This document shows positions 11,383 to 23,042 of a stretch of DNA of 64,000 bases, piece by piece. The notes under the pieces were generated by a model. The model searched no databases and was not told where the DNA came from. It saw only the letters and a list, made by a program, of their open reading frames with translations. How positions within the stretch are numbered: the first letter of the stretch is position 1; each line of letters begins with the position of its first letter. The position numbers were made by a program, and so were the translations under genes. The stretch spans positions 124,001-188,000 of the forward strand of contig DUNO01000001.1 of the NCBI GenBank assembly GCA_012839295.1, read 5' to 3'. Source of the stretch: Clostridiales bacterium. GTDB taxonomy: Bacteria; Bacillota; Clostridia; Lachnospirales; Lachnospiraceae.

Positions 11383-11405
11383 CACCATATGTCCAGGACT
11401 GACAC

Positions 11406-11460
11406 ACCCATGAAGCCAGGACCAAGGGGGATAACTTGGCTTCTTCATGGGTGGTTTTTT
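11406..11460 (+). terminator. Rho-independent terminator after cotJC
   Basis: The arm beginning ACCCATGAAG (11406) pairs with CTTCATGGGT (ending 11452), with CCA/TGG pairs continuing inside past a three-base bulge, and is followed by GGTTTTTTG. Confidence 0.8.
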
Positions 11461-11652
11461 GTGTGTAAGCTTAATCCGGAGGAGTTTGAAAAGGCTTTAA
11501 AGGACGTAAAGGACTTTTTGGACAGCGGTATCCCAAAATATCCTGTATGCACAATCAATGCGTGGAATGAATGGACGGAAGGGAGCTATCTGGAGCCGGA
11601 TACCGTAAACGGGATGGGGTATTTGGAGGCGGTCAGGAAAGTGTTTGGTTAA
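11461..11652 (+). pseudogene. C-terminal remnant of a GH99-like / WbsX-type protein
   Basis: The frame after the terminator encodes about 60 residues: NPEEFEKALKDVKDF, then INAWNEWTEGSYLEPD and GYLEAVRKVF. NAWNEWxEGxxLEPD is the C-terminal hallmark of GH99-like/WbsX (and GH71-type) proteins involved in polysaccharide processing. The open frame reaches back to 11389 only by running through the terminator, and there is no ribosome site, so this is a scar of a lost gene of several hundred codons. Confidence 0.65.
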
Positions 11653-11837: not shown

Positions 11838-11865
11838 TTGATAGAATTGCGTAATTTGTTATAAT
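11838..11865 (+). promoter_or_regulatory. Promoter of the nuclease-STAND gene
   Basis: TTGATA (11838-11843), 16 bases, TATAAT (11860-11865). Transcription would begin near 11872, which excludes the in-frame ATG at 11864 and supports the start at 11900. Confidence 0.7.
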
Positions 11866-11899
11866 GAAAAGGAATCCACAAGTATATGGAGGGATTTTT

Positions 11900-14800
11900 A
11901 TGAGTAATTATGATTTCCACCGCAAATTCGATCCGATGGAATTCCAGAGATTTGTCCGGGATATGCTTCAGGTTCGGGAGCATCTGGTTTTTGAATCCTT
12001 TAAGGATGGCAAGGATGAAGGAATTGACGGAAGGCATATTTCAAAGGACGGAGAAGTAACGATTCTTCAGGCGAAACGTTGGAAGGTATTGCGTAAGGAT
12101 GAGCTGAGAAAAGAAAAAGAGAAAATGGATATTATAAAACCGGATCGGTATATCTTAGGCCTTTCTATGAATCTGGATCCATCACAAAAAGCAGAAATTA
12201 TGGAGCTTTTTGCACCGTATATAAAAAGCCCGGATGATATTGTAACGGAGAATGATTTCAATAACCTGATTGGCAAGCCTGAGTATAGATCCATAGAGGA
12301 CAATTATCGTAGCTTATGGAGTGAGAGTACCCAGACCATGAAGAGAGTCATGGCGGAGACCTTGCATGGGGTGTTGCTGGGTGACTCAAGACGGGCTCTT
12401 GAGGATGCGATGAAGGAGGCAGAGGTATTTGTCCAGACGGAGGTATATAGCAAGGCCTTAAAGCAGTTAAAGAATAATAAGGTGATTATTATCGCTGGGG
12501 AGCCCGGTGTCGGAAAGACGACCCTGGCTTGCCAGCTGGCTCTATATTATTATTGCAGGAAGGGCTTTGACACCTTCATATGGGCGAAAAAGGTGGATGA
12601 TCTTTCTGCAGCGTTAAGCATTGGAAGCAAAAGGGTTATAGTATTTGACGATTTTTGGGGAAGCACCTTCCAGGAAAGCTCCATAGCGGGAAAAGACGAG
12701 CAGCAGCTGGCACAGTTCATAGAAAAGATTTATGGGCAGCGGGAGACTGTGGTGCTTCTTACGACCAGGGAGTATATCCTGGAGCAGGGCTTAAAGAAGC
12801 ATGCCGATTTACGTGAGATCATTGGAAAATATAAGCTGGAATGCCTGCTGGAGGAATATTCCCCCGTGGATAAGGTGCGGATCTACTTCGGACATTTAAA
12901 AAGGTCAAACTTGACCTGGGAGCAGCTAAAGCAGCTGTTTGATGCCCATAAGCTGGTAATCGATTCGCCTAATTATAACCCCCGGGTTGTTGAGATGTTT
13001 TTGAAGCAGACGGATCCGGAGGAATCGCCCCAGGATTGTGAGGATCGGTTCTTTTCTTACCTGGAAAGGCCGGAAAGGTTCTGGGAAGCCATATTTGAGG
13101 GGCTATCCCGGGAAGCCCGCATCGCTTATATATTGTTAAGCACCTACCCGGTGCCTGCACGCCTGGGGGCTTTAAGGGAGAGCTTCTGCAAGGTCATCGA
13201 TTGGATGGGAAATCCGGTCGAATGGAAGGATTTTGGAAGCACAATTGCGGAGCTGGAGAAAACAGTTATTAAAACAATCCACTTGCCAAGGCTTGATACG
13301 ATATTGGTAAAGTTCCAAAACCCCTCTGCCTATGATTTTATTTATAGCTTTTTGGCTAAGAATTTCAGGCAGTATCAGCAGCTGCTGGTTCAGGGCTGCC
13401 GTTGCTTTGAGCAATACATTTATTTATTGAATTATTTTTTTAAGGAGCTGCCTGACGGTGAAGAATATGGTTATGTATTAGGGAAGTGTATTGATACCAT
13501 ATATGAGCCATCCATAATGTCTGAATACTTCAGGGAGTATATCACGGATAATGAATGGGAGTATTATGAGGAATCCGGGGAAGAGGATGCTCCTTTGGAG
13601 CGGTATTATAAGGTGCTCAAATGCTTGAATGAGGGCAGGGGTGAAGCTTATCATGGTTTTTTCACGGGCTTCCTGCAAGGATATCTAAGAAAAATGGCTG
13701 AGGGACCCTGGGACATATCTAGCAGGGACCTGGAGATTTTTCCGGAGGTGATCAAGGTATTTGCCAGGAAGGGCTTCCGGCTTGATGCAAATACTGTTAT
13801 GGGAGTATACCTGGATTGTATTTTGAAAAGCAGGACAAGGCTGGAGCTGGACGGGTTCAGGGAGATATTCCCCGGCTTTTACCCGGATTTTCTTTCAGGG
13901 CATACGCAGGAGATCAAAAATCATATAGAAAAAAATTATAAAGAGAAATTGTGTATGGCTGTTGCAGAGGGAGGGGAATACTCATTCCGCTATACGTACA
14001 ACGAGGGCTTGAAGGAGCTTGAGAAATATGGGATAGAATGCAGCCCTGACTGGAAGAAGGAAATCGATGAGTATGCCGGCTGGGTCACCGAGGACAGCAA
14101 AAAGGATACTGAAGAGGAGAAGGAGGAGATCCGGGAAGAATCAAGGATCAGCTATGAGCAGGCCGTAAGGAGCAATGAGGAGGAGCTGTTTGGGACAAAT
14201 AACCTTCTAACCTCTGATGAAATCAGGGATATGATTGAGGACTCTGACCTTAAAGACGAGTTAAAGGAAGGCCTGTATACCATAGAGGAGGAAGGAGAGC
14301 CTTGGTTTATCTATCATTTTATGGAGGAGCGGGATACTTTTCTTTTGCTTATAAGGGTTCTGGAGGATACCGGATATATGCTAGAAAATCTCATGTTATT
14401 TACCCTTCACCTGATCAGGCAGCTGTCACAGATGCATGGCATAGATACGGAAAGATTAATGCCTTTTTTAATCGAATTTGGTGCGGAGGTAGTCTGGAGG
14501 AAGGAGGTTATCCTGACAAGGGAAGAGATTATCCATTCCCAGGCGTACCAGGCCCATTTTGAGGAGGAAGATTTTGACCAGCTGGTGAACGGAGGATTAT
14601 TCACGGCTAAGAGGCAGTGGTATAAGCTGGTGGATATCCTGTTGGTCATACTGCCCTATGCATTATTTATTTCAGGGATGAAGCTGGAGGATAAAAAGGA
14701 ATATTATGCGGACCTGATATCGGAGCGGGATTGGCCTCTAAAGGGAGTGGTGACAAAAAGGCTGGAAGGAAAGATGTATTCCAGCATTTACATGGCTGAC

Positions 14801-15283
14801 ATTGGGTACTATCAGTTTCATAATCCCTATCACGAGGCTTTGCTTTATAAAGCGCTGGAAAGCTTTGACCGGAACGACTATATGGAATTTGCAGTCGGTG
14901 CCCTGGCAGAGGAATATTGCAGAGGCTTTACGGGGTTAACAGAGGCTCGGACCGCCTATGGAATTATGAAGGATGTTGAGCTGGTAATTGAGGTGGATCA
15001 GCAGGGAGAGGTGCTTGGAGGACAGAATTCCTTATCGCAGCTGTGGATGATGCTGGAGAGCCTGGAGATTACCCAGGTTCTTGACCTTGTGCCTGACTGC
15101 TTTGACAGCGCCCAGATGTCGGTTATCAGGCAGAATTTTGAGCTGGTGAATGGACGGAATGGGGAATACTACAAAGTAATCTTTGGTAAGGTGGAGGATG
15201 TGGATATCATAGAAAAAATGGGATGTGTGGAGCCGGTGTTGTCGGAATACCGGAAGATATGCGCGTTATGTGGAAGAAATTAA
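11900..15283 (+). CDS. Mrr-like nuclease fused to a STAND NTPase (Avs-like, probable anti-phage defence)
   Basis: 1127 residues from ATG 11900, which has a GGAGGGA ribosome site. Residues 1-110 look like a restriction-endonuclease-type nuclease: Glu14 in DPMEFQRFV, Asp43 in EGIDG, then Gln57-Ala-Lys59 in TILQAKRW. Residues 175-420 are a STAND-type P-loop NTPase: Walker A GEPGVGKTT (200-208), Walker B VIVFDDFWG (247-255) and a sensor region LLTTREY. The remaining ~700 residues are helical without a recognised motif, including a very acidic stretch (EDSKKDTEEEKEEIREE), and probably form the sensor. N-terminal nuclease, central STAND and C-terminal sensor is the plan of Avs proteins, in which recognition of a phage protein triggers oligomerisation and nucleic-acid cleavage. 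The specific trigger is unknown. Confidence 0.82.
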   Translation: MSNYDFHRKFDPMEFQRFVRDMLQVREHLVFESFKDGKDEGIDGRHISKDGEVTILQAKRWKVLRKDELRKEKEKMDIIKPDRYILGLSMNLDPSQKAEIMELFAPYIKSPDDIVTENDFNNLIGKPEYRSIEDNYRSLWSESTQTMKRVMAETLHGVLLGDSRRALEDAMKEAEVFVQTEVYSKALKQLKNNKVIIIAGEPGVGKTTLACQLALYYYCRKGFDTFIWAKKVDDLSAALSIGSKRVIVFDDFWGSTFQESSIAGKDEQQLAQFIEKIYGQRETVVLLTTREYILEQGLKKHADLREIIGKYKLECLLEEYSPVDKVRIYFGHLKRSNLTWEQLKQLFDAHKLVIDSPNYNPRVVEMFLKQTDPEESPQDCEDRFFSYLERPERFWEAIFEGLSREARIAYILLSTYPVPARLGALRESFCKVIDWMGNPVEWKDFGSTIAELEKTVIKTIHLPRLDTILVKFQNPSAYDFIYSFLAKNFRQYQQLLVQGCRCFEQYIYLLNYFFKELPDGEEYGYVLGKCIDTIYEPSIMSEYFREYITDNEWEYYEESGEEDAPLERYYKVLKCLNEGRGEAYHGFFTGFLQGYLRKMAEGPWDISSRDLEIFPEVIKVFARKGFRLDANTVMGVYLDCILKSRTRLELDGFREIFPGFYPDFLSGHTQEIKNHIEKNYKEKLCMAVAEGGEYSFRYTYNEGLKELEKYGIECSPDWKKEIDEYAGWVTEDSKKDTEEEKEEIREESRISYEQAVRSNEEELFGTNNLLTSDEIRDMIEDSDLKDELKEGLYTIEEEGEPWFIYHFMEERDTFLLLIRVLEDTGYMLENLMLFTLHLIRQLSQMHGIDTERLMPFLIEFGAEVVWRKEVILTREEIIHSQAYQAHFEEEDFDQLVNGGLFTAKRQWYKLVDILLVILPYALFISGMKLEDKKEYYADLISERDWPLKGVVTKRLEGKMYSSIYMADIGYYQFHNPYHEALLYKALESFDRNDYMEFAVGALAEEYCRGFTGLTEARTAYGIMKDVELVIEVDQQGEVLGGQNSLSQLWMMLESLEITQVLDLVPDCFDSAQMSVIRQNFELVNGRNGEYYKVIFGKVEDVDIIEKMGCVEPVLSEYRKICALCGRN

Positions 15284-15311
15284 GGAGGTATGGGATACGG
15301 AAAGGGAAGCT

Positions 15312-15764
15312 ATGGAGGATAAATTCGAAAAACTAAGGGATGAATTAAAAATAGCAGTTTGCCAGTACTCCGATTATAACGATTATTGGGGAATGCTGGA
15401 GGGGCTTCTAGAAAGCTATGATGAAAGCTTGGAGCATTATGATTTTGAAGCATGGTTCAGCGGTGGGGGCAAGGATTCCCGCGGCAAGCTGACGGTCAGG
15501 GCGATGAAGATGCTTCGGCTTACAACCGGCTTATTCCAGGAAATCCATGATTTGGCGGAGCTTCGGCTGAAAAGAGCAGTTGACAATATCCTAGAAGCAG
15601 GAGAAGAGGCGCAAAAAGAGATCTTGGGGCTGGAGATCAACCAGGAAGTGGTGGACAGAATTTTTGAACAATTGTATGATTTGGAATACCGCTATCATAT
15701 GGAGGAGGCTTATGAGGGCTTTTTAGAATTTGTAAAGGACATTGCCGGTAAGGAAAAGCCATAG
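15312..15764 (+). CDS. Unknown helical protein next to the STAND nuclease
   Basis: 150 residues from ATG 15312; the frame is open further upstream and overlaps the end of the STAND gene, and an AAGGAGG at 15283-15289 has no normal start at the right distance, so the true start may be earlier (an in-frame GTG near 15270 or 15225). The product is charged and almost wholly helical (FEKLRDELKIAV; EIHDLAELRLKRAVDNILEAG), with a central glycine-rich turn WFSGGGKDSRG. I recognise no family. Its position, tight to or overlapping the nuclease-STAND gene and before a shared terminator, suggests an operon partner such as a regulator, inhibitor or co-sensor. Confidence 0.65.
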   Translation: MEDKFEKLRDELKIAVCQYSDYNDYWGMLEGLLESYDESLEHYDFEAWFSGGGKDSRGKLTVRAMKMLRLTTGLFQEIHDLAELRLKRAVDNILEAGEEAQKEILGLEINQEVVDRIFEQLYDLEYRYHMEEAYEGFLEFVKDIAGKEKP

Positions 15765-15770
15765 CGGTGT

Positions 15771-15855
15771 TGTCAAGCCTGCTTCCGCAAAAAATATTAA
15801 TTTGGATAGGAAAACCTAAAGGTGTCAGGAGAGCGGGCTTGACACCTTTGTTTTT
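15771..15855 (+). terminator. Terminator of the STAND operon
   Basis: TGTCAAGCCTGC (15771-15782) pairs with GCGGGCTTGACA (15833-15844), with one G-U wobble, followed after a few bases by TTTGTTTTTTG. The 50-base loop is long. Confidence 0.65.
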
Positions 15856-21234: not shown

Positions 21235-21304
21235 TTAAGACGGATCGATTAAGACGGATCGATTAAGACAGACCGATTAAGACAGATCGATTAAGACGGA
21301 TGAA
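21235..21304 (+). repeat. Five tandem 14-base repeats before the first methyltransferase
   Basis: Units of the form TTAAGACGGATCGA at 21235, 21249, 21263, 21277 and 21291, the last degenerate. They lie between the ATPase gene and the methyltransferase gene. 14 is not a multiple of three, so they are not a protein repeat. Confidence 0.9.
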
Positions 21305-21341
21305 GATAGATGAAAACGGATTAAATAAGGAGCTGATAGTA

Positions 21342-22073
21342 TTGGAGCAGATAGAAGAACGGGTAAAAAATTATTGGACAAGGCGGGCGCAGGATTTTGG
21401 TATGGTACGGAGGATGGAACTGCAGGATGAAATAAGTGGCCGTTGGCTGGAAGAGATTAATAAATATATTCCGAAGGAAAAGGGGTTGAGAATTCTGGAT
21501 GTTGGTACCGGGGCAGGGTATTTTGCAGTGCTTCTTGCAGAAGAGGGGCACCGGGTATATGGCATAGACCTGACACCGGCTATGATAGAGGAAGCAAAAA
21601 AGCTGGCCGGGGACAGGGGAATGTCCATAGAGTTCTCAGTGATGGATGCGCAAAGCCTGGATTTTCCCGAGGGAAGCTTTGACGTGGTGATTGCACGGAA
21701 TTTGACCTGGACCCTGCCAAAGCCGGAACAGGCCTACGGGGAATGGATGAGGGTTTTGGCAAAGGGGGGGATTCTTTTAAACTTCGATGCGGATTATGGG
21801 CAGGAGGTTCAAAGCATGGAAGAGAATGAGCCGGAGGCCAGTGCGGATGCCTCGGGCTTCCATATTGGGGTGACACAGGAGCTAAGGCAGGAATCCAATG
21901 AGATTACAAAGGCTATGGCTATCAGTCAAAATAGAAGGCCTGACTGGGATATTGCCATCATAAAGGAAATGGGATTTTTAGAATGCCAATGTGATAGGGA
22001 GGCAGGCTCCCGTGTTTTAAAGGAGCGAAACGGTGAGGCCGCGCCTACTTTTCTTATTATGGTACGCAAGTAA
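21342..22073 (+). CDS. SAM-dependent methyltransferase (class I), first of two
   Basis: 243 residues from TTG 21342, which follows AAGGAG by nine bases; an in-frame ATG at 21300 lies inside the upstream DNA repeat and has no ribosome site. The Rossmann motif I is ILDVGTGAGYFAVLLAEEG (about residues 50-68), motif II acidic end VYGIDLT, and motif IV region VIARNLTWTLPKPEQAYGEW. It belongs to the class I methyltransferases of the UbiE/Methyltransf_11 type. It is encoded in an operon with a nickel/peptide-type importer, so its substrate may be a metallophore or the imported compound; this is inference. Confidence 0.88.
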   Translation: MEQIEERVKNYWTRRAQDFGMVRRMELQDEISGRWLEEINKYIPKEKGLRILDVGTGAGYFAVLLAEEGHRVYGIDLTPAMIEEAKKLAGDRGMSIEFSVMDAQSLDFPEGSFDVVIARNLTWTLPKPEQAYGEWMRVLAKGGILLNFDADYGQEVQSMEENEPEASADASGFHIGVTQELRQESNEITKAMAISQNRRPDWDIAIIKEMGFLECQCDREAGSRVLKERNGEAAPTFLIMVRK

Positions 22074-22084
22074 GGGATCTATGA

Positions 22085-22230
22085 GCAAAGAAATACATGG
22101 GCAAAGGAGTGCGTAAACAAAGGGAGCCATGAACAAAGGAGGGCATAAACAAAGAAAACCATGAACAAAGAAAACCATGAACAAAGGAATACATGGTTGG
22201 AAGAGGCATAAACAAAAACATATAAGCAAG
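22085..22230 (+). repeat. Degenerate 16-base repeats between the two methyltransferase genes
   Basis: About eight units on the theme CATGAACAAAGRARA follow one another between the genes; two adjacent copies near 22160-22195 are identical. No open frame of note reads through on the plus strand. Confidence 0.8.
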
Positions 22231-22283
22231 GTGGCACAAGTAGAAGGGATAGAAATAGAAATAAAGGAGTACACAGATAAAAA

Positions 22284-23042
22284 ATGAACATGGAGCTTTA
22301 CGAACAGAACAAAGAATATTGGACCGGAAGGACAATGGGGTATTCCAAGGTAAACGAAGAAGAATTAAACACGGCACAGAAGGAGAAATGGCTGCGGGTC
22401 CTAAAAGAATCCCTGCCCCAAAATACAGCTGGAATAAGAGTGCTGGACATGGGCACAGGCCCCGGATTTTTCGCTATTATTCTTGCGGAGGCCGGCTACG
22501 ATGTGACGGCAGTAGATTGTACCCAATCCATGTTGGACAGGGCCAAGGTGAATGCCAAAGCTTATAAAGATTCTATCTGCTGGGTGCTTTCAGATGCACA
22601 GAGGCTGGAATTTGAAGACGAAAGCTTTGATGCCATCGTCAGCAGAAACCTGACCTGGAATCTGGAGAAACCGGAGCAGGCCTATGGCGAATGGATTCGC
22701 GTGCTAAAAAAAGGTGGCATCCTGTTAAATTTTGATGCCACCTGGTATAATTATCTCTATGATGAGGAAATGAAGCAGGGGTATGAAAGGGATAGGAGAC
22801 AGGTAGAAGAGCTGAAATTAGAGGATCATTATACCTGTACGGACATTGATGCCATGGAGGGGATTTCCAGAAAACTGCCTTTAAGCCGGTGCAGCAGACC
22901 GGGCTGGGATATTGAACTTTTGAAAAAATATGGAGTGGCCAAAATCCAAACAGACCAGGAGGTATGGAAAAGGGTATGGTCCCAGGAGGAGCAGGTGAAT
23001 TATGGGTCAACGCCCATGTTTTCCATCCGGGTTATAAAGTAG
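22284..23042 (+). CDS. SAM-dependent methyltransferase (class I), second of two
   Basis: 252 residues, a diverged copy of the gene before it: motif I VLDMGTGPGFFAIILAEAG, motif II VTAVDCT, and a motif IV region SRNLTWNLEKPEQAYGEWIRV that closely matches its neighbour. AAAGGAG lies 17 bases before the ATG with a run of A and T between. Both proteins start with a helix that contains NYWTxR or KEYWTGR and end with GSTPMFSIRV-like or APTFLIMVRK-like strands. Two paralogous methyltransferases with one importer suggest two successive methyl transfers or two related substrates. Confidence 0.88.
   Translation: MNMELYEQNKEYWTGRTMGYSKVNEEELNTAQKEKWLRVLKESLPQNTAGIRVLDMGTGPGFFAIILAEAGYDVTAVDCTQSMLDRAKVNAKAYKDSICWVLSDAQRLEFEDESFDAIVSRNLTWNLEKPEQAYGEWIRVLKKGGILLNFDATWYNYLYDEEMKQGYERDRRQVEELKLEDHYTCTDIDAMEGISRKLPLSRCSRPGWDIELLKKYGVAKIQTDQEVWKRVWSQEEQVNYGSTPMFSIRVIK

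Follow-up and report, generated by a model that had tools for sequence, protein, structure and literature searches.

The 64,000-nt stretch analyzed here (the window; contig DUNO01000001.1 of a Lachnospiraceae bacterium, with positions counted from its first letter) carries, between positions 11,838 and 15,855, a large gene for a putative nuclease-STAND NTPase, followed by a small gene for a predicted helical protein, its partner. We propose, with a probability of about 0.6, that the large protein is an Avs-like sensor, a one-gene system in most relatives but with an accessory helical partner in one clade. This proposal draws on the domain anatomy and predicted fold of the large protein, on a survey of related loci and on the persistence of the gene pair through extensive divergence.

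The large gene and its small neighbor

Profile searches of the large protein uncovered the two catalytic domains that a preliminary description of this DNA, made by reading the sequence, had claimed. The Mrr_cat family matched residues 8-62 (24.0 bits, with a Pfam cut-off of 21) and nSTAND3 residues 177-334 (130.7 bits, cut-off 27.2). In a 14-sequence alignment of the window protein with 13 relatives (residue numbers from M11900), D43, Q57, and K59 of the nuclease, G200/G203/G205/K206/T207 of the P-loop, and the Walker B residues D250 and D251 are invariant throughout, whereas E14 is conserved at 90% or more, which bears out the nuclease residues singled out earlier. Over residues 3-159, PADLOC additionally gives two Argonaute-associated models (E 2.6e-30 and 3.1e-17), and the effector therefore resembles parts of other defense systems. 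When the nuclease region was searched by sequence against the PDB, only a PCNA chain, no stretch of which passed alone, and one match at E 0.97 came up; both were rejected. As to the 700-residue sensor-like region also described, a long C-terminal region is indeed there, which the AlphaFold model shows as mostly helical until residue 865 or so and, starting near residue 870, as mixed alpha/beta, and residues 542-1127 may well serve as the sensor.

By sequence, the large protein is a long-form relative of the PADLOC family PDC-S73 and no member of the Avs families. Its residues 1-541 match positions 1-542 of the 752-position model in the same order (E 4.1e-96, 321.5 bits), but its C-terminal half does not. 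Model positions 543-752 fall outside the best stretch, and residues 542-1127 are left unmatched. PDC-S73 matches every one of the 13 long forms that were aligned, including that of the window; five short relatives (766-790 aa) do so almost end to end (390-534 bits, up to positions 694-751), and a 100/100 branch separates short from long forms in the tree. PDC stands for 'phage defence candidate' in PMC11514479; our literature search found no paper naming PDC-S73. By its profile match, the N-terminal half of the large protein resembles a family that is on record as a defense candidate. One short PDC-S73 gene, on a Prosthecochloris plasmid (L013:947-8301), lies close to a diversity-generating retroelement with Avd, a reverse transcriptase, and two genes of the formylglycine-generating-enzyme family.

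The small open reading frame (ORF) is, to judge from its codon pattern, a genuine gene for a selected protein. Aligned to the corresponding gene of Hungatella hathewayi WAL-18680, it scores 151, whereas 500 shuffles average -31 (standard deviation 14), and identities at the three codon positions are 0.51/0.59/0.33 over 146 codons, with synonymous divergence (dS) saturated. The protein is predicted to be long and all-helical, with a predicted local distance difference test score (pLDDT) of 82.5 and a predicted template modeling score (pTM) of 0.73. It matched nothing in Pfam, PHROG, or PADLOC, and Foldseek retrieved no fold relative at E up to 0.001 (best E 0.2). A likeness to chorismate mutase (21.8 bits, NCBIfam cut-off 71.2), weak Pfam look-alikes of the Hungatella copy to DnaT or Csm2, and a PADLOC match to Csm2 given by one of six members were all rejected as chance matches of helical sequence, each being below its cut-off or limited to a single member. 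Derivation of the partner from a duplicated piece of the large protein was likewise discarded upon profile comparison (A5 vs A7, probability 0.1%).

The start of the small gene, which had been called unusual, is indeed ambiguous. ATG 15312 leaves a gap of 28 nt after the stop of the large gene, whereas GTG 15270 would produce an overlap of 14 nt and a protein of 164 aa, near the 170 aa of its Hungatella counterpart; the Hungatella genes overlap by 8 nt. With either start, the predicted helical gene overlaps or nearly abuts the end of the large one, as first described. Directly behind a strong AAGGAGG, a tiny 10-codon ORF (15290-15322) overlaps ATG 15312 and may be what makes the start seem unusual.

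The open frame of the large gene spans 11864-15283, but translation likely starts at ATG 11900 rather than at ATG 11864, because GGAGGG precedes the former and the predicted -10 element overlaps the latter. Both the promoter of its own and the shared terminator of the preliminary description have counterparts in consensus matches (Table 1). The promoter-like site agrees with the consensus at 11 of 12 positions, with TG ahead of the -10, and ranks first among 19 such sites, against a mean of 9.1 after shuffling. A 13-pair stem with a T run makes up the terminator-like site, of a class that is not enriched (five found, shuffled mean 4.2). Immediately upstream of the large gene, an 87-aa ORF (11389-11652) encodes what we take to be a glycosyl-hydrolase-like sequence, presumably the C-terminal remnant of a bigger enzyme gene; it is possibly a scar close to the insertion point of the cassette. 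Farther downstream, two tandem related genes (21300-23042), which we assume to be class I methyltransferase-like, follow peptide ABC transporter genes.

Table 1. Coordinates of the two genes, their domains and the flanking signals in the window
Feature	Position	Strand	Remark
Sigma-70 promoter-like site, TTGATA-16-TATAAT, extended -10	11838..11865	+	Consensus match only
Large gene, Mrr nuclease - nSTAND3 NTPase - long C-terminal region, 1127 aa	11900..15283	+	Long-form PDC-S73 relative
N-terminal Mrr-type PD-(D/E)xK nuclease region, residues 1-165	11900..12394	+	D43, Q57, K59 invariant
nSTAND3 NTPase domain, residues 177-334	12428..12901	+	P-loop GEPGVGKTT, Walker B D250 D251
C-terminal region past the PDC-S73 match, residues 542-1127	13523..15280	+	Presumed sensor
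Partner gene, 150 aa, predicted all-helical protein	15312..15764	+	Alternative start GTG 15270
Intrinsic-terminator-like hairpin and T run, after partner gene	15817..15850	+	Consensus match only

Distribution of the two genes

We surveyed relatives of both genes at several taxonomic depths. Among 397 genomes of the window's family, its own counted, the large protein has relatives in eight (E up to 1e-10) and the partner in two (E up to 0.001). Within the genus, the large gene occurs in one of 34 genomes and a partner match in two, of which one is weak and was put down to chance; the transporter gene downstream is confined to one of the 34, the window's own, so that no empty-site comparison is available there. 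Relatives of the first half of the large protein also occur on plasmids (31 of 72,556 records, 24 typed as conjugative) and in phages (two of 50,697 records), which points to mobility. Viral contigs yielded no relative of either gene.

A first contig scan with the single large protein gave no match; an alignment (A3) used as the query against the species collection then revealed 20 loci, 21 with the window. These include long homologues in Paenibacillus, Neobacillus, Tumebacillus, Oceanobacillus, Desemzia, Pelotomaculum, Saccharibacillus, and Clostridium. All 21 loci were searched in six frames with two partner profiles. The partner adjoins the large gene in two, the window and H. hathewayi WAL-18680 (L026; genome G149), whereas neither profile matched at the other 19. 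Four of these are poorly judgeable, since the sequence past the gene is just 254 nt long in L024, 48 nt in L040, and 165 nt in L041, and L033 is interrupted. The remaining 15 are clean absences, where 1.1 kb or more downstream of the gene was covered, either as a continuous stretch or by reading on past the break. The large gene is intact in 12 of them (L025, L027-L032, L034, L035, L037-L039) and split or broken in L036, L042, and L043, the far half of L042 being read in L017. Furthermore, in 16 of 19 genomes that carry a long relative, the partner profiles matched nowhere (E up to 0.01; the L030 genome was outside this search). The proposal of a new two-gene variant thus holds for one clade (2/21 loci), but the constant pairing on which the preliminary description had made it depend is largely contradicted by the 19 loci without the partner.

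In the midpoint-rooted tree (L033, L036, L041, and L042 as partial rows; L040 and L043 left out), the window and L026 form one clade (98/98) within a clade of four rows (100/100). The remaining two rows, L024 and L025, pair with each other (100/99), come from Paenibacillus, and show no partner match. Because L025 is a clean absence within the same four-row clade, one gain of the partner in the Lachnospiraceae branch is the simplest history, loss in the Paenibacillus branch being a possible alternative.

Some of these loci carry further features. In Faecalicatena faecalis (L017:6556-17899, the same locus as L042), a mobile element some 8 kb long, with what we take to be an integrase of the tyrosine type and an ORF resembling a resolvase, splits the large-gene relative, the C-terminal half of which lies beyond the element with no partner after it. 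In Hungatella, an ORF that is presumably of the HNH type (L016:8126-8707) ends 22 nt upstream of the large gene, a place where the window has no counterpart. The relative in Paenibacillus brasilensis (L033:7971-11462) stops early (766 aa), and an ORF starting 84 nt after it appears to us transposase-like.

The partner family was also searched independently of the large gene, in partly overlapping samples where weak matches and the window's own genome are counted. Relatives were detected in 9 of 391 genomes of the class (E up to 0.01), in 3 of 226 of the order, and in 1 of 338 of the phylum, the window's own (both at E up to 0.001). Six weak profile matches lying inside unrelated long frames (G254, G441, G556, G520, G825, G1276) were treated as chance. 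This leaves stand-alone or fused relatives in G649, G496, G749, G623, G798, and G1184, besides a broken-frame relative in Saccharibacillus endophyticus, on a different contig from the large gene. Whole-genome searches found no large-protein relative in the first five of these genomes (E up to 1e-5), and none was present near any of the retrieved loci of the partner family. The stand-alone relatives in G749, G623, and G1184 are 185-187 aa long. The G496 protein (L055:9046-10677) fuses a partner-like N-terminal domain to PRiA4_ORF3 (PF07929, E 4.1e-23). By eye, an N-terminal motif (G/S)(T/M)x(H/Y)RxxP is recognizable in six of seven stand-alone or fused relatives and lacking from both STAND-linked proteins. 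Plasmid and phage records contained no relative of the partner (P0002) or of its G623 copy.

Way of working and role of the partner

We modeled the large protein with AlphaFold2 from a 13-row alignment, which excluded the partly N-containing L027 sequence (mean pLDDT 77.3, pTM 0.44). The top Foldseek matches of this model were Avs4 (8dgf, E 4.5e-8), human SAMD9 (9zjs, 2.1e-7), and Avs3 (8dgc, 8.2e-6), with the plant resistosome NRC4 (9cc8, 3.7e-5) and the Avs5 filament (9nc9, 1.2e-4, rank 7) further down. Since Avs4, Avs3, and Avs5 are all matched, an Avs-like working appears most likely, and the model lends good support to a nuclease sensor of this kind; the predicted fold and the sequence agree with the nuclease-STAND-sensor reading first given. 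By analogy, the large protein would sense phage, oligomerize, and cleave DNA. At rest, the nSTAND3 NTPase would keep it inactive until the C-terminal region binds a phage-derived protein as the trigger; recognition would lead to NTPase-driven oligomerization, and the clustered Mrr-type nuclease domains would then cut DNA and stop the infection. In most relatives it would do so as a one-gene system. In the clade of the window and H. hathewayi WAL-18680, the small helical protein, from a clostridial family that otherwise stands alone, would have been gained directly downstream, where it probably shares a transcript with the large gene, and kept; it is most likely an accessory subunit tuning sensing or activation.

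This role of the partner is suggested by the retention of the pair through divergence while other neighbors changed. Between the window and Hungatella, each of the two proteins is only about 33-34% identical, and the large gene is the single ORF shared between the 35 window and 18 Hungatella ORFs kept by the filter of the flank comparison, an overlap filter that removed the Hungatella partner, the presence of which other searches demonstrated. Because both proteins have diverged this far and their neighbors have changed, the adjacency has outlasted other synteny. Given that the partner is linked to the large gene in one clade only and has stand-alone relatives elsewhere, the pair is probably a lineage-specific acquisition and the partner an optional add-on rather than a required half of a new system. 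Both genes may be co-transcribed, and their products may be in physical contact.

Several points weigh against our proposal. The 16 Foldseek matches at E ≤0.001 also hold ORC/Cdc6, NLRP3, RPP1, Ycf2-FtsHi, and Drg1, and template modeling (TM) scores by query are 0.14-0.23; since other STAND and AAA+ proteins match, and with such scores, the likeness concerns the STAND core and repeats, and in a model of this pTM the match rests largely on the NTPase core. A PADLOC scan of the large protein (E up to 10) recovered five families, no Avs model among them, and Avs chains went unmatched by sequence in PDB searches. The flanks of 14 long loci (118/130 ORFs, at least 150 aa) match 62 PADLOC families at E up to 1e-10. 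Among the 25 of these that were listed, mad2/mad3 and HTH_VI lead with two members each, besides numerous methyltransferase models and single matches to a type II restriction enzyme and to AbiD, counts that stand without a background set and hence give no enrichment figure. In the tree, the Hungatella row is a long branch flagged as unsure by the tree tool. Finally, the pair is known from two loci, probably the product of one event, and from these we infer selection for the pair.

The large protein could instead act in type IV modification-dependent restriction, the Mrr domain cutting modified DNA directly under a McrBC-like NTPase motor or switch, with no protein sensing. The Mrr_cat match fits this idea, as does a weak resemblance to McrB that the P-loop region showed when searched by sequence against the PDB. 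Its NTPase, however, is nSTAND3, of the STAND type as in Avs5, whereas that of McrB is of the AAA+ type; the top fold matches are Avs4, SAMD9, Avs3, and an NLR; and no reader domain for modified DNA was evident among the listed 25 of 33 Pfam families. We therefore regard type IV restriction as improbable.

Because two loci and probably one event underlie the pair, the partner may also be a passenger, inserted once downstream and carried on the same transcript but functionally unlinked to the nuclease-STAND protein. The 19 of 21 loci without a partner match agree with this, as do the partner relatives found in five genomes without the large gene or alone at L056 and L070, in settings whose neighbors look ordinary to us as we presume their identities from sequence. 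Yet adjacency, order, and near-overlap have been kept despite the low identity of both proteins, with no other shared neighbor found, and the absence of the N-terminal motif from both STAND-linked copies hints at an altered role, all of which makes a passenger somewhat unlikely. The accessory reading can be sharpened into the tentative possibility of a single recruitment, by which a stand-alone clostridial helical protein became a dedicated subunit for regulation or co-sensing and turned a single-gene sensor into a two-protein one. The result would be a STAND defense protein with a fused nuclease and with its activation set by a separate helical adaptor, an arrangement of which we know no other case.

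On the other hand, a small helical gene directly downstream of a nuclease effector gene recalls an antitoxin-type pair, in which the small protein would restrain a nuclease otherwise harmful to the cell, one of the roles first suggested. The obligatory linkage expected of such a pair is missing at 19 of 21 loci. The 12 intact long homologues with at least 1.1 kb of partner-free sequence behind them and the 16 partner-less genomes indicate that the nuclease is tolerated without the partner. STAND proteins are, moreover, kept off by their own NTPase. Restraint by a needed antitoxin is thus very improbable.

On the reading as an Avs-like sensor with an accessory partner, Avs-like immunity of the NLR type also covers a long-form nuclease-nSTAND3 family that is present in several Bacillota lineages and for which our literature search found neither activator nor activity in print. 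The partner offers a natural with/without comparison, one clade having it and its sister clade holding a homologue without it, which allows testing of sensing range, activation threshold, and phage escape. If true, its recruitment would be a simple example of a single-gene immune sensor gaining a subunit.

Comparison with known systems

The closest system by sequence is PDC-S73, which has the Mrr-nSTAND3 half in common with the window protein. The C-terminal region of the latter is longer and its own, whereas the short forms cover nearly the whole model; PDC-S73 is, moreover, a single-gene candidate, of which the small partner is no part. The partner itself shares its profile match with a stand-alone clostridial family, but the motif of that family is missing from the STAND-linked copies.

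With Avs4 and Avs3 (AVAST types 4 and 3), ranked first (8dgf) and fourth (8dgc) by Foldseek, the window protein has in common the tripartite effector-STAND-sensor layout. Of the features by which Avs proteins are recognized, it possesses an intact Walker A/B, an N-terminal effector, and domain-level fold similarity. The Avs-like layout put forward in the preliminary description thus stands as to fold and tripartite order, but not as to sequence, which matches neither PADLOC Avs models nor Avs chains in the PDB. No paper from 2020 on was found with both 'Avs4' and 'Mrr'.

Avs5 (AVAST type 5), according to PMC12931631, carries nSTAND3 (PF20720), a Sir2 effector, and C-terminal repeats. The nSTAND3 domain and the repeats are thus common to both proteins, in keeping with the match to the Avs5 filament, whereas the effectors differ, a Sir2 NADase in Avs5 and an Mrr-type nuclease in the window protein. 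Avs1, composed of the nuclease Avs1a and the protease Avs1b, is likewise a STAND defense system with a separate partner gene, as described in PMC12799240. There, however, the nuclease is the partner and is proteolytically activated, whereas in the window the nuclease is fused to the STAND protein and the partner is helical, with no recognized catalytic domain. The same paper reports that Avs1 and Hachiman have a common acquired nuclease-protease pair, which provides a precedent for immune systems gaining partner genes.

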